A DNA stretch of 64,000 nucleotides from Candidatus Gastranaerophilales bacterium (GTDB taxonomy: Bacteria; Cyanobacteriota; Vampirovibrionia; Gastranaerophilales; CAJFVJ01), in assembly GCA_944323485.1 (NCBI GenBank), contig CALUSR010000001.1, positions 130,437 to 194,436 on the forward strand, in the 5' to 3' direction. The position numbers were made by a program, and so were the translations under genes. Shown piece by piece: positions 17,141 to 48,959 of the stretch. The stretch's first letter is position 1, and each line of letters opens with the position of its first letter. The notes beneath the pieces were generated by a model. That model worked only from the letters and a program-made list of their open reading frames with translations. It had not been told where the DNA came from and made no database searches.

Positions 17141-17169
17141 TTGACCTTTGCCGAGTTAACAGCCATAAT
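17141..17169 (+). promoter_or_regulatory. Sigma70-type promoter of TPR gene
   Basis: TTGACC (17141-17146), 17-nt spacer, CATAAT (17164-17169). The predicted transcript start near 17176 leaves a leader of about 29 nt containing AAGGAG at 17191-17196. Confidence 0.65.
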
Positions 17170-17204
17170 TTTTTCTATAAGAGCTTATTTAAGGAGTCAA
17201 AAAA

Positions 17205-19343
17205 ATTAATAAAAGAGTTCTTTTAACTGCCATTCTCTTAGGCGTTGGTATTACATCGAACATAGCATTCGGCATGGGAGCCGATGCTTATGAATATTAT
17301 CAAAAAGCACTGATTGCCGAAAAAAATCAGAAGATTGACGATGCAATTCTCTACACTCAAAGTGCATTAAACCTCGCCTCAAATGACGCACTCCTTCATA
17401 CAAAACTTGCCGGGCTTTACCAGCAAAAAGGTGATTGGGAAAAAGCGCTTAGAGAATACAAGTCAGCTCTTTCTTCAAATCCGAATGATGCTTTCGTCTA
17501 CATAAGCATAGGAAATATTCTGCAGCAGCATAGTGACTACAACGGTGCACTCAACGCTTACAATCAGGCAATGCGTCTATCAGAAGATTATAAATATAAT
17601 TATTTGAATATAGCTACGGTTAAAAGACTTCAGGGCAAATATGACGAAGCTGTAGACTACTACAGAAAATTTTTGATGTATTATCCTTCCCACACCGAAG
17701 CACGTGAGAGTCTTGCTATTATTTATTCTCATCAAAATAAACCTCTGCTTGCAAAAGAACAGTATGAATATATCTACAATACAGCTCCATCAAGTTTCAA
17801 GTCTTATTCAGGATACGGAAAAACTCTGCTCGATACAAACAATGTTGACCGTGCAATAGAAATTCTTAAAACAGCGATTGAATCAAACCCGAACGACGCC
17901 CAAACACATGGCAGCCTTGCAATGGCTTATGCAAGAAAGCAGGATGTCGTAAATGCGGAAAAAGAATTCCAAACAGCACTTACTCTTGCACCTGATGCTG
18001 ACAGCATCAGATACAATTATGCATCGTTCCTTGTCACTCAAAACAAGTGGGATAAAGCAAAAGAAAACTACAATATATGTCTTGCAAATAATCCAAAAAA
18101 TATAAATCTTCTCTATGATTTGGGTATGGTTTATCAAAAGCAAAACGACCATGCAAAAGCCATTGAAAACTTTGAAAAAGCTCTTCTTCAACAGCCTGAC
18201 AACGATGAAATCAAAAAGCAGCTGGCAAAAAGTTATCATCTGAACAGTCAATACCAAGAAGCGCTCAACATTTATCTGGCACTTCTTCCAAAAGACCCGA
18301 AAAATCCAAAACTTTTATACAATACAGCACTTGCATATCACTCGCTGCAAAATTATCCAGAGGCAATAAAATACTACTCTGAATCACTTGCAACAGAGCA
18401 GTCAGATCAGACAAAAAATGACCTTGTTCAGGCTTATGTATCTTATGGAAATGAATTTGCGGACAAAGAAGATTTCAAATCCGCTATAAAACAATACAAA
18501 AGTGCTGTAGCTCTGAACGAAAATGATTTTTATGCAAACTCTGGATTAGCAAATGCTTATTATAACCTCGGAATGAAAGACGAAGCTATCAGCAGTTATG
18601 AAAAAGCTATCGCCATTGAACCGACAAACAAACAGATTTATACAGAATACGGAGAAACTCTCAGCAAATTTAACATGACGGATGAAGCCGAGGGAGCTTT
18701 CAGAAAAGCTGTCGAACTTGATTCAACAAACACCGGAGGTTATATCGGTCTTGGAGATAATTTTGTATCACAAAAACTCTATGATAAAGCTCTTGTAGAA
18801 TACCAAAAAGCTCTTGATATAACTCCTGAAGACCCGATTATTTTGATAAAAATGGGGAACGTTTACAAAGATAAAGACAACAGCGAAAAAGCAATCGAAC
18901 TATACCAAAAAGCAATTGACTCTGACCCTGATAACACTGATGCGATGTTTAATATAGGTTCCGTGTTGATTGAGCAGGAAAAACTGGCAGAAGCAAAGAC
19001 GTATTACCAGAAAATAGTCGATATAAAACCTGATTTTGACTACACTTATTATGCCCTCGGAATTATTGAAGAAAAAGAGAAAAACTATCCAAAAGCCATA
19101 GAGTATTATCAAAAATTTATCTCAAGCACAAAAGATAAAGATAAACACAACAGCGTAAGCAAAAAAATAGAAGAGCTTGAAAAAACAATCAAATCACAGG
19201 AACTTTCAAAACAGCAGGAACAAACACAAACAAAACCTGAAGAACAACAAAAAGTTACGGTGCCTGATACGAAAAAAAATATTGAAGAACCGATACATGA
19301 AGAACTATCAACACCGCCGTCAACAACAGAATTTCTTGAATAA
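17205..19343 (+). CDS. Exported multi-TPR protein, apparent ATT start codon
   Basis: 712 residues if started at ATT 17205. AAGGAG (17191-17196) lies exactly 8 nt upstream. The 23 residues from ATT to the first in-frame ATG (17274) form a good signal peptide: NKRVLLTAILLGVGITSNIA then FG. No ATG, GTG or TTG occurs in frame between the stop at 17190 and 17274. The mature part holds about 16 TPR units of 34 residues (Ala at positions 8 and 20, Pro at 32, as in YNLGMKDEAISSYEKAIAIE), then a low-complexity Gln/Glu/Lys tail (about residues 660-712). It likely scaffolds protein complexes in the periplasm. The adjacent lipoprotein gene starts 2 bp after its stop. Confidence 0.85.
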   Translation: MNKRVLLTAILLGVGITSNIAFGMGADAYEYYQKALIAEKNQKIDDAILYTQSALNLASNDALLHTKLAGLYQQKGDWEKALREYKSALSSNPNDAFVYISIGNILQQHSDYNGALNAYNQAMRLSEDYKYNYLNIATVKRLQGKYDEAVDYYRKFLMYYPSHTEARESLAIIYSHQNKPLLAKEQYEYIYNTAPSSFKSYSGYGKTLLDTNNVDRAIEILKTAIESNPNDAQTHGSLAMAYARKQDVVNAEKEFQTALTLAPDADSIRYNYASFLVTQNKWDKAKENYNICLANNPKNINLLYDLGMVYQKQNDHAKAIENFEKALLQQPDNDEIKKQLAKSYHLNSQYQEALNIYLALLPKDPKNPKLLYNTALAYHSLQNYPEAIKYYSESLATEQSDQTKNDLVQAYVSYGNEFADKEDFKSAIKQYKSAVALNENDFYANSGLANAYYNLGMKDEAISSYEKAIAIEPTNKQIYTEYGETLSKFNMTDEAEGAFRKAVELDSTNTGGYIGLGDNFVSQKLYDKALVEYQKALDITPEDPIILIKMGNVYKDKDNSEKAIELYQKAIDSDPDNTDAMFNIGSVLIEQEKLAEAKTYYQKIVDIKPDFDYTYYALGIIEEKEKNYPKAIEYYQKFISSTKDKDKHNSVSKKIEELEKTIKSQELSKQQEQTQTKPEEQQKVTVPDTKKNIEEPIHEELSTPPSTTEFLE

Positions 19344-19345
19344 CC

Positions 19346-19762
19346 ATGAAAAAATTTTTGACCATTCTTATTCTTGTTTTTGCAGTATTTCTTGGAGGAT
19401 GTGACAGAGAAAAACCGGCCATTTTCTTTAGTTCGCACCCGATTGATAAAAACACCTTCAATCCTGATCAGGTTTCAAACAAAAACTTCTGGGTCGGGCA
19501 AAAAATTTATTTTCTTGTTTATTATCCGAAGGGCTTTCCGACAAACAGCATCAGACTACAGGTTATAACAAAAAAAGACGATGTAAAATTCTACGGAATA
19601 GATATCGTTCAAGTTCGGGATATCCCTGTCAAACAGGGCAGCATGATTTATAGAGGCTCATTCTGTTTGTACAAAAACAGTCTTCACTACCTCCGTGTAT
19701 TCTCGCCTGATGACTGGAATGTTCCGCTTGTTCAGGACTGGTTCTGGGTAAGAGAAAGCTGA
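19346..19762 (+). CDS. Small lipoprotein of unknown function
   Basis: 138 residues. A signal peptide ends in the lipobox LGGC (Cys about residue 19). The mature part is beta-strand-rich with several aromatic pairs (NFWVGQKIYFLVYYPKGF, DWFWVRES end), resembling small beta-sandwich lipoproteins, but I recognise no family. The ATG is 2 bp after the TPR stop and has no ribosome site of its own, so translation is probably coupled. That pairing suggests a joint envelope role with the TPR protein. Confidence 0.8.
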   Translation: MKKFLTILILVFAVFLGGCDREKPAIFFSSHPIDKNTFNPDQVSNKNFWVGQKIYFLVYYPKGFPTNSIRLQVITKKDDVKFYGIDIVQVRDIPVKQGSMIYRGSFCLYKNSLHYLRVFSPDDWNVPLVQDWFWVRES

Positions 19763-36528: not shown

Positions 36529-36646
36529 AATCTTCTTCAAATTAGGTAAAAAAATATATAAAAAAAACCTATTATGTGTTATTCTTTAAGGATAAAATCT
36601 TATTTAATTTAAGATTATGTCATATAGTTAAAAAGGAGTTAGGACA

Positions 36647-38197
36647 ATCGAAAACTTAAGTCAGATGGCTATACCTCTGATGGTAGTTGTTGTTTTACTC
36701 GTAGTCTTAATAGTCTACTTATTCTTTGCAATAAAAAATCATAAACTACGAAATCAAGAACTTTCAAAGGAACTGGCCGAAACACAAGCAGATTTTGATA
36801 AAAAATTAAAATTGCAGCAAAAAGAAGCTTTCTTGAGTGCAAAAGAACAGCTTCATTCTCAGCGCGAAGACTTCGACAGAGAAGTCAGAGAAAGACGGGC
36901 AGAATTATCAAAACTCGAAAATAAACTGCTCGTAAGAGAAGATAAACTCGAAGAAAAATATCAGGATGTTGTAGATAAAGAAGAATCACTCAGAAAAAAA
37001 CTTGATGAACTTCTCGAAAAAGAAGACATCCTCGCAGACCTCGTTGCGAAACAACGTGAAGAACTGGAAAGAATTTCAGGGCTTACGGCAGAAGAAGGAA
37101 AACAACTTCTGCTGCAACAACTTGAAGAAGACCTGAAAAAAGAAACAGCACAGCGCATAAAAGAAAATGAAAACTATATAAAAGAAATCTCAAATGAAAA
37201 GGCAAAAGAAATTCTCACAACAACGATGCAGCGTTGTGCAATGGATCAGGTTGTCGAATCGACAGTCTCTGTAGTAAACCTTCCAAATGATGAAATGAAA
37301 GGAAGAATCATCGGAAGAGAAGGAAGAAATATCAGAGCACTTGAAACTTTTACAGGTGTTGATTTGATAATCGACGATACACCTGAAGCTGTCGTTCTCT
37401 CTTGCTTTGACCCGGTTAAAAGAGAAATAGCAAGAATGGCACTCGAAAAACTTATTGCAGACGGTCGTATCCACCCTGTGAGAATAGAAGAAACCGTCGA
37501 AAAAGCAAGAAGTGAAATAGAAGAAAAAATGTTCAAAGAAGGTGAAGCTGCAGCTATAGAACTGGGTATAATAAACCTTCATCCTGAGATAATAAAAACT
37601 CTAGGACGTCTTTACTATAGAACAAGTTACGGGCAAAACGTCCTCAAACACTCTATAGAAGTCGGACACCTTGCAGGTATGCTTGCTGCAGAAATCGGCG
37701 CCGATGTAAAAAAAGCAAAAAGGGCAGGCCTGCTGCATGATATAGGAAAAGCTCTTGACCAGACTCAAGAGGGAACGCATATTGAACTTGGTGTTGCTTT
37801 TGCCAAAAAATTCAATGAACATCCGGACATAATCCACGCAATAGAAGCGCACCATGATGATATTGTTGCAAACAGCACGGAAGCGGTTCTCATCAAAATT
37901 GCTGATGCAATGAGCGCAGGACGCCCCGGAGCAAGAAGAGATACTCTTGAAATCTATATCAAGAGAATAAATAAACTCGAAGAAATAGCAACCAGCTACG
38001 AAGGAATAAAACGTTCATTTGCCGTTCAGGCAGGAAGAGAAGTCCGTGTTATCATTCAACCGGAAGTCTTTGATGATGCAGGAGCAGCAAAACTCGCAAG
38101 AGATATAGCAAAAAGAATAGAACTCGAACTCGATTACCCGGGTCAAATCAAAGTTACCGTCGTAAGAGAAATTAGAGCAACAGAAATCGCAAAATAA
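36647..38197 (+). CDS. rny: Ribonuclease Y, apparent ATC start codon
   Basis: 516 residues from ATC 36647. AAGGAG (36633-36638) lies exactly 8 nt before ATC. The first in-frame ATG (36665) is 26 nt from that site, and no ATG, GTG or TTG occurs in frame after the stop at 36629. Domains: N-terminal TM helix ([19 protein letters not shown]), a long coiled coil to about residue 190, a KH domain with [15 protein letters not shown], and an HD domain with [12 protein letters not shown]. RNase Y is the membrane-bound endoribonuclease that initiates mRNA decay. It is followed by the ymdB-like gene, as in Bacillus rny-ymdB. Confidence 0.9.
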
Positions 38198-47500: not shown

Positions 47501-48139
47501 ATGGGCTTAGCCGCATCACAAGCATGTTTAGACCTATTAACATTAAGAAAAAGCGATTTGGAATATCAGATTATGCAAATTGCTGACAGACGACTTCAGC
47601 TCACAAAAGATATGGAAGTTCTTGCTGAAGAAAAAGCAAGAAAACTCGGTAACAAAGTTATTAATGTCATCAAACCGGCATCTGAAAGAGATGGAGAAGA
47701 AGAGAAACTCTCATTGTCTATAGATGCATTGAGTGAGCAAAACAGAGTTTTGATAGAAACAGCAACCGGTGAAGTTGTTACAGATAAAACTCTCAGCGAA
47801 ATGGATATTGAAAATGGTTTAAGAAACGGCACTTACAGACTGGCAGAGGGAAGCGACGGGAAAGCAACCCAAGATGAATCTACAGATAAAGAAGATAAAA
47901 ATAAATATGTTGACTGGAGAACCGATACGGTCGTAAGAGATGAATACTATACTGATGATGATGAAGAAGCAACTGCAATATATGATGCGGAAACAGCAAA
48001 AATAAAAACCAAAGATCAGGAATTTGATATGGAACAAAAAACAGCTGAAACTCAACAGAAAGCTGTTACAAACGAAATAGACGGTGTTAAAAAGAACATT
48101 GAGAAAAGTATCGAGATGGGATTCAAATTATTTGCATAA
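47501..48139 (+). CDS. MGL-family tandem paralogue 1
   Basis: 212 residues, no signal peptide or TM segment. N-terminal helix MGLAASQACLDLLTLRKSDL and a C-terminal helix ending NIEKSIEMGFKLFA flank an acidic middle with DIENGLRNGTYRL and VDWRTDT. Helix-middle-helix layout with coiled-coil ends recalls flagellin- or needle-type subunits, but this is only architecture. AAGGAG lies before the ATG. About 28 of 212 aligned residues differ from paralogue 2 by eye. Own terminator at 48177. Function unknown. Confidence 0.85.
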   Translation: MGLAASQACLDLLTLRKSDLEYQIMQIADRRLQLTKDMEVLAEEKARKLGNKVINVIKPASERDGEEEKLSLSIDALSEQNRVLIETATGEVVTDKTLSEMDIENGLRNGTYRLAEGSDGKATQDESTDKEDKNKYVDWRTDTVVRDEYYTDDDEEATAIYDAETAKIKTKDQEFDMEQKTAETQQKAVTNEIDGVKKNIEKSIEMGFKLFA

Positions 48140-48320: not shown

Positions 48321-48959
48321 ATGGGTTTAGCAGCATCACAGGCACATTTGGACTTATTGACATTAAGAAAAAGCGACTTGGAATTTCAAGTAATGCAAAT
48401 TTCTGACAGAAGACTCCAGCTTACAAGAGATATGGAATCACTGGCTGAAGAAAAAGCAAGAAAACTCGGTAACAAAGTTATTCATGTTATCAACCCTGCA
48501 GAAGACAGAGATGGCGAAGAACAAAAATTATCTTTATCAATAGATAACTTAAATGAACAAAACCGTGTATTAATTGAAACATCAACAGGTAAAGTCATCA
48601 CTGATAAAAACCTGACTGAAATGGATATTGAGAATGGTTTAAGAAACGGCAAATACAGACTTGCAGAAGGAAGCGACGGTAAAGCTACTCAAGATGAAAC
48701 TACAGATAAAGAAGATAAAAACAAATATGTTGACTGGAGAACTGACACAGCTGTAAGAGATGAATATTACACTGATGATGATGAACTTGCTACAGCTGAA
48801 TACGACGCAGCAACTGCTAAAATAAAAGCAAAAGACCAAGAATTTGATATGCAGCAGAAAACAGCCGAAACTCAACAGAAAGCTGTTACAAACGAAATAG
48901 ACGGTGTTAAAAAGAATATTGAAAAAACAATTGAAATGAGTTTTAAATTATTTGCTTAA
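48321..48959 (+). CDS. MGL-family tandem paralogue 2
   Basis: 212 residues, collinear with paralogue 1 without gaps. Starts MGLAASQAHLDLLTLRKSDL and ends NIEKTIEMSFKLFA. The most constant blocks are the segment around ATQDETTDKEDKNKYVDWRT and the C-terminal TAETQQKAVTNEIDGVKKN. Differences concentrate in residues 60-110 and 150-170. AAGGAG precedes the ATG. Separate terminators before and after suggest each copy has its own promoter and expression level. Confidence 0.85.
   Translation: MGLAASQAHLDLLTLRKSDLEFQVMQISDRRLQLTRDMESLAEEKARKLGNKVIHVINPAEDRDGEEQKLSLSIDNLNEQNRVLIETSTGKVITDKNLTEMDIENGLRNGKYRLAEGSDGKATQDETTDKEDKNKYVDWRTDTAVRDEYYTDDDELATAEYDAATAKIKAKDQEFDMQQKTAETQQKAVTNEIDGVKKNIEKTIEMSFKLFA

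Follow-up and report, generated by a model that had tools for sequence, protein, structure and literature searches.

Where does translation begin in a gene whose frame offers no ATG, GTG or TTG before the end of its own signal peptide? The question is raised by a gene for an exported tetratricopeptide repeat (TPR) protein in a stretch of 64,000 nucleotides (nt) of contig CALUSR010000001.1 from a Candidatus Gastranaerophilales bacterium (genome G000); this whole stretch is referred to below as the window. The original prediction placed the start at the ATT at position 17205. Our comparison of orthologues supports this assignment, and we consider it likely that the gene is initiation-limited, that is, translated from ATT 17205 with a start that is discriminated by initiation factor 3 (IF3) and an output that is limited.

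The start site of the TPR gene

The elements on which the original prediction was built were all recovered from the sequence: AAGGAG lies 8 nt before ATT 17205, a complete signal peptide ends just ahead of the Met at 17274, and there is no ATG, GTG or TTG from the preceding in-frame stop (TAA, 17190-17192, which overlaps the Shine-Dalgarno sequence) to 17274. The frame from the ATT translates as INKRVLLTAILLGVGITSNIAFG-MGADAYEYY..., a typical signal peptide as judged by eye and by hydropathy, and it has the layout of exported TPR proteins, with a predicted N-terminal signal peptide and then TPR repeats. The expected loss of the signal peptide by gene callers was seen as well, as the standard listing of open reading frames (ORFs) begins at 17274 (17274-19343, 689 amino acids). 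Callers limited to ATG, GTG and TTG make this annotation fault, and they would turn the product into a cytoplasmic protein.

To judge whether the upstream segment is coding we turned to close relatives. The congener Candidatus Adamsella avium (G001, L002/L031; Cyanobacteriota/Melainabacteria group) carries an identical ATT in the start slot, and its segment corresponding to 17205-17273 differs at 7 of 69 nt, with five changes silent and two conservative (R/K and I/V). In G002, from another genus of the same family, the slot holds ATG, followed by KKKLVLIITVMILILNIQSSFA and then M, and in families f3-f7 ATG or GTG precedes comparable signal peptides. The TPR signal peptides also align with those of orthologues that start at ATG. 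We conclude from this that both the frame and its signal peptide are genuine and that translation starts at the slot. An ATG in relatives had been suggested as a check of the frame, and relatives with ATG only at 17274 and no signal peptide as its refutation; the former was found and the latter was not. The 197 of 198 leader nt shared with the congener were dropped as evidence, because many other intergenic blocks are equally conserved.

The same comparisons bear on two other explanations. The true start might be ATG 17274, 23 codons past the ATT, giving a cytoplasmic product, or both forms might be made and the protein be dually localised. A Met at or beside the mature N-terminus is indeed common in the orthologues, but those with an ATG ahead of the signal peptide often have it too, and in some orthologues Leu or Phe takes its place; its behaviour is thus that of a mature-protein residue. 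Moreover, ATG 17274 has no Shine-Dalgarno sequence, and in orthologues L082 and L083 the first 61 codons past the slot are free of ATG. We regard a start at 17274 as improbable. That the ATT, one base away from ATG, arose through faulty sequencing or assembly, or marks a decaying gene, has next to no probability and was set aside as already refuted by the orthologues: two separate assemblies, from two species, agree on ATT at 17205, 54 orthologues have non-canonical codons, the long frame is intact, and its substitutions are biased to the third position.

Start codons across the orthologues

We gathered the 5′ regions of the TPR gene in family f2 (128 genomes) and in other families, read 157 genes, and assigned the start slots by reading and with a motif script. 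The slot was non-canonical in 54 of the 157 orthologues (44 ATT, 5 ACG, 4 ATA and 1 ATC) and ambiguous in nine; the remaining genes start at ATG, GTG or TTG. Nearly all of the 54 have a GGAG/GAGG-type Shine-Dalgarno sequence. Of the 54, 41 lack any canonical codon from the upstream stop to the slot, seven have one close by, a TTG adjoining or overlapping the Shine-Dalgarno sequence, and six have their canonical codons at least 11 codons upstream of the slot. L082 (G128) has no canonical codon between the upstream stop and codon 62, and therefore a non-canonical start is obligatory there. In genus g3 two adjacent codons are usable (ATT ATT or ATT ATA); the first of them is ACT in L024 and L030, which points to the second.

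The non-canonical state was found in the window's genus, in the main f2 clade, in a second f2 clade (g31, g36, g49 and g56) and in a lone lineage, g27. The main f2 clade comprises 57 genomes, 43 of them clearly non-canonical, over a tree length of 12.5 amino-acid substitutions per site, and its slot codon drifts among ATT, ATA, ATC and ACG. Several of its members (L041-L044, L074 and L077-L079) have an ATG upstream of the slot while the slot itself is still ATA, ATC or ATT; in L047, L063 and L126 (g36) the ATG is possibly at the slot itself. Conservation of the ATT had been proposed as a sign of likely control, and ATT, ATA, ATC or ACG is indeed kept in the congener and through much of f2. This deep comparative record suggests that the codon class was kept and not the codon, which would fit selection for weak, IF3-sensitive initiation. 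A weak start kept in the same place in dozens of related species also suggests that production is deliberately held low at the translation start.

Several observations weigh against this reading. The nine ambiguous slots mostly have an ATG overlapping or abutting the Shine-Dalgarno sequence, and a FastTree phylogeny of 156 orthologues implies at least nine switches between canonical and non-canonical states. Some relatives, G002 of the same family included, start the gene at ATG, so the gene can do without the weak start. Finally, for this lineage the support is drawn from sequence.

Non-canonical starts elsewhere in the genomes

If the lineage were simply lax about start codons, the ATT would carry no special meaning. 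We therefore scanned 744 kb of G000 blindly for ORFs in which a Shine-Dalgarno sequence of at least 5 nt is followed by a non-canonical codon, with all canonical codons further downstream. Three genes with such starts, which could be taken as a sign of laxity, were clear among 617 ORFs: the TPR gene, the RNase Y gene rny (ATC) and infC (ATC, C1:552657), the gene for IF3. One further hit was weak, an ATA at C1:515582 on the minus strand, with a 5-nt Shine-Dalgarno sequence (AAGGA), a 560-codon ORF in L292 and no canonical codon upstream. The scan of 400 kb of G003 (362 ORFs) recovered infC (ATA) as the sole convincing case, and each of the other three hits had either an ordinary explanation or a supported ATG close by. 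The GTT at 964456 of G003 was set aside for overlapping an out-of-frame ATG, and that at 933376 (C11, L332) for its resemblance to the frameshift site of prfB (release factor 2); G003:C11:933376 is a probable programmed frameshift site in its own right (AAAGGAGTGTCTTTGAC). The Shine-Dalgarno-backed first starts that we counted were 353 ATG, 73 TTG and 47 GTG. Such rarity against 617 and 362 ORFs makes a generally lax lineage an unlikely explanation, and, given this rarity and the 54 non-canonical starts among 157 orthologues, the ATT start of the TPR gene is beyond chance.

The RNase Y start is arguably as interesting as that of the TPR gene. Among 53 genes from across the order, 28 have a non-canonical codon in the slot (17 ATC, 9 ATA and 2 ATT), often in the conserved context AGAGGTATAGGACAATCGAA, 24 have ATG, for the most part in f7 and the main f2 clade, and one stays ambiguous. 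In the same genomes the start of infC was ATT, ATA or ATC in all 30 genes examined (L164-L193), with ATA in f2, ATT in most other families and ATC in the window's genus. An RGACAAT(T/A/C) context lies right at the non-canonical start codon of rny, of f2 infC and of many TPR genes (L133, L136, L144, L234 and L170 are examples from these three sets of loci); it may be a recognition feature or reflect common drift. Outside the order, a class-level search found no rny match at E 1e-50 and a single distant TPR relative, which has ATG, and both genes are essentially confined to this order in the class-level sample. G002 has two full-length RNase Y genes (contigs C38 and C34), 72% and 66% identical to that of the window.

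The TPR operon and its proposed control

The features of the window are collected in Table 1. Searched against Pfam, the TPR protein showed TPR repeats only, and the proteins it matches by sequence are generic TPR proteins. Several short runs of TPR lift the PilW (TIGR02521) and MamA models above their cut-offs, and PrsT falls below its own; as many TPR models match, no specific family was assigned. In most of the relatives inspected, the gene after the TPR gene encodes a lipoprotein of about 135 amino acids. Its AlphaFold model has a mean predicted local distance difference test score (pLDDT) of 86.9, and the Foldseek matches are beta-sandwich folds. The TPR gene heads a conserved two-gene operon, encoding the TPR protein and a putative immunoglobulin (Ig)-like lipoprotein, which are likely an envelope-associated pair. 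The candidate promoter would put the transcript start near 17176, with a leader of about 30 nt; patterns of this kind occurred 8 times against 8.9 expected in shuffles. The start region gave no signal of RNA structure (z = 0.11), and a search of Rfam gave no match.

Table 1. Positions of the start-site elements and genes in the window.
Feature	Position	Strand	Basis
Sigma-70-like promoter, TTGACC-17-CATAAT (candidate)	17141-17169	+	Consensus scan, 10/12 matches; pattern match only
Shine-Dalgarno sequence AAGGAG	17191-17196	+	Sequence; similar element in orthologues
ATT start codon	17205-17207	+	Sole in-frame candidate; congener ATT; G002 ATG
Signal peptide coding segment	17205-17273	+	n-region NKR, hydrophobic core, small-residue end
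Exported TPR protein, 712 amino acids	17205-19343	+	Present in 40/40 genomes searched
Small lipoprotein, Ig-like beta-sandwich (predicted), ATG start; second operon gene	19346-19762	+	Alignment
Shine-Dalgarno sequence AAGGAG of RNase Y	36633-36638	+	Sequence, blind scan; 8 nt before ATC
RNase Y (rny), ATC start	36647-38197	+	TIGR03319 equivalog, 685 bits

As we picture it, the 30S subunit would be guided to ATT 17205 by the Shine-Dalgarno sequence in the ordinary way and would bind the initiator tRNA (fMet) there, yielding the exported TPR protein. Because AUU pairs imperfectly with the tRNA, initiation would be slow and IF3 could reject it. Here a strong Shine-Dalgarno sequence is combined with what appears to be a deliberately poor codon, and thus the output of TPR protein is proposed to be limited relative to the lipoprotein, which starts at ATG. 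TPR output should fall at high ratios of IF3 to 30S subunits.

The start may also act as a fixed dial and not as a sensor, a variant of IF3-discriminated initiation to which we give even chances: it would set a low constant output, such as a low ratio of TPR protein to lipoprotein, with IF3 never varying enough to matter. The conserved operon with a normal ATG on its second gene is in line with this variant, as is the long retention of the codon class while individual lineages switch to ATG; in sigR-rsrA, a GTC start sets such a ratio (PMC5472188).

The nearest known system is infC itself, which starts at AUU, AUC or AUA and is autoregulated, with IF3 counter-selecting the poor codon. The TPR gene resembles it in its strong Shine-Dalgarno sequence, placed about 7-9 nt ahead of a codon from the set ATT, ATA and ATC, and infC of the same genomes drifts within this set and not to ATG. 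It differs in encoding an exported TPR protein, so any control by IF3 would act in trans and not as feedback. To our knowledge, conserved non-canonical starts have been described for few bacterial genes, and the present order extends the list by RNase Y and an exported TPR operon.

Other systems were compared as well. In Streptomyces sigR, IF3 dosage and fidelity mutants alter translation from GTC, and repression by IF3 was shown (PMC5472188). Like the TPR gene, sigR has a conserved non-canonical start and a strong Shine-Dalgarno sequence and is the first gene of a two-gene unit; it is a different gene, its codons are GTC/GTT and not ATN/ACG, and the IF3 effect shown for it is predicted for ours. 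In Staphylococcus aureus, the AUA start of ccpN and the AUU start of cvfC1 were mapped by Ribo-Ret and tested with reporters, and expression from the non-canonical AUA and AUU starts was cut to about 10% (up to 30%) of the AUG level (PMC13009471). These too are conserved starts with strong Shine-Dalgarno sequences, but theirs have extended Shine-Dalgarno motifs and are mapped and reporter-tested, whereas the TPR start is known from sequence. In Escherichia coli pcnB, a gene distinct from infC, translation is limited by the AUU start, according to the accounts of Binns and Masters (2002) given in PMC13009471 and PMC9410913. As far as these accounts go, the AUU start is shared with the TPR gene, while the genes are unrelated and the TPR feature spans many genera and includes ACG.

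RNase Y parallels pcnB, which encodes poly(A) polymerase, in being an RNA-turnover gene with such a start, and this makes IF3-level tuning of mRNA decay a directly testable question. Tentatively, and with rather less than even confidence, we suggest that a small set of genes (infC, RNase Y and the envelope TPR operon) could be tied to IF3 by start codons that are kept poor on purpose, so that the state of initiation fidelity would jointly set mRNA decay and envelope function.

Elsewhere in the window, two segments of about 640 bp each (47501-48139 and 48321-48959) each have a second matching site in the congener at about 82% identity, and are probably a tandemly duplicated gene pair.
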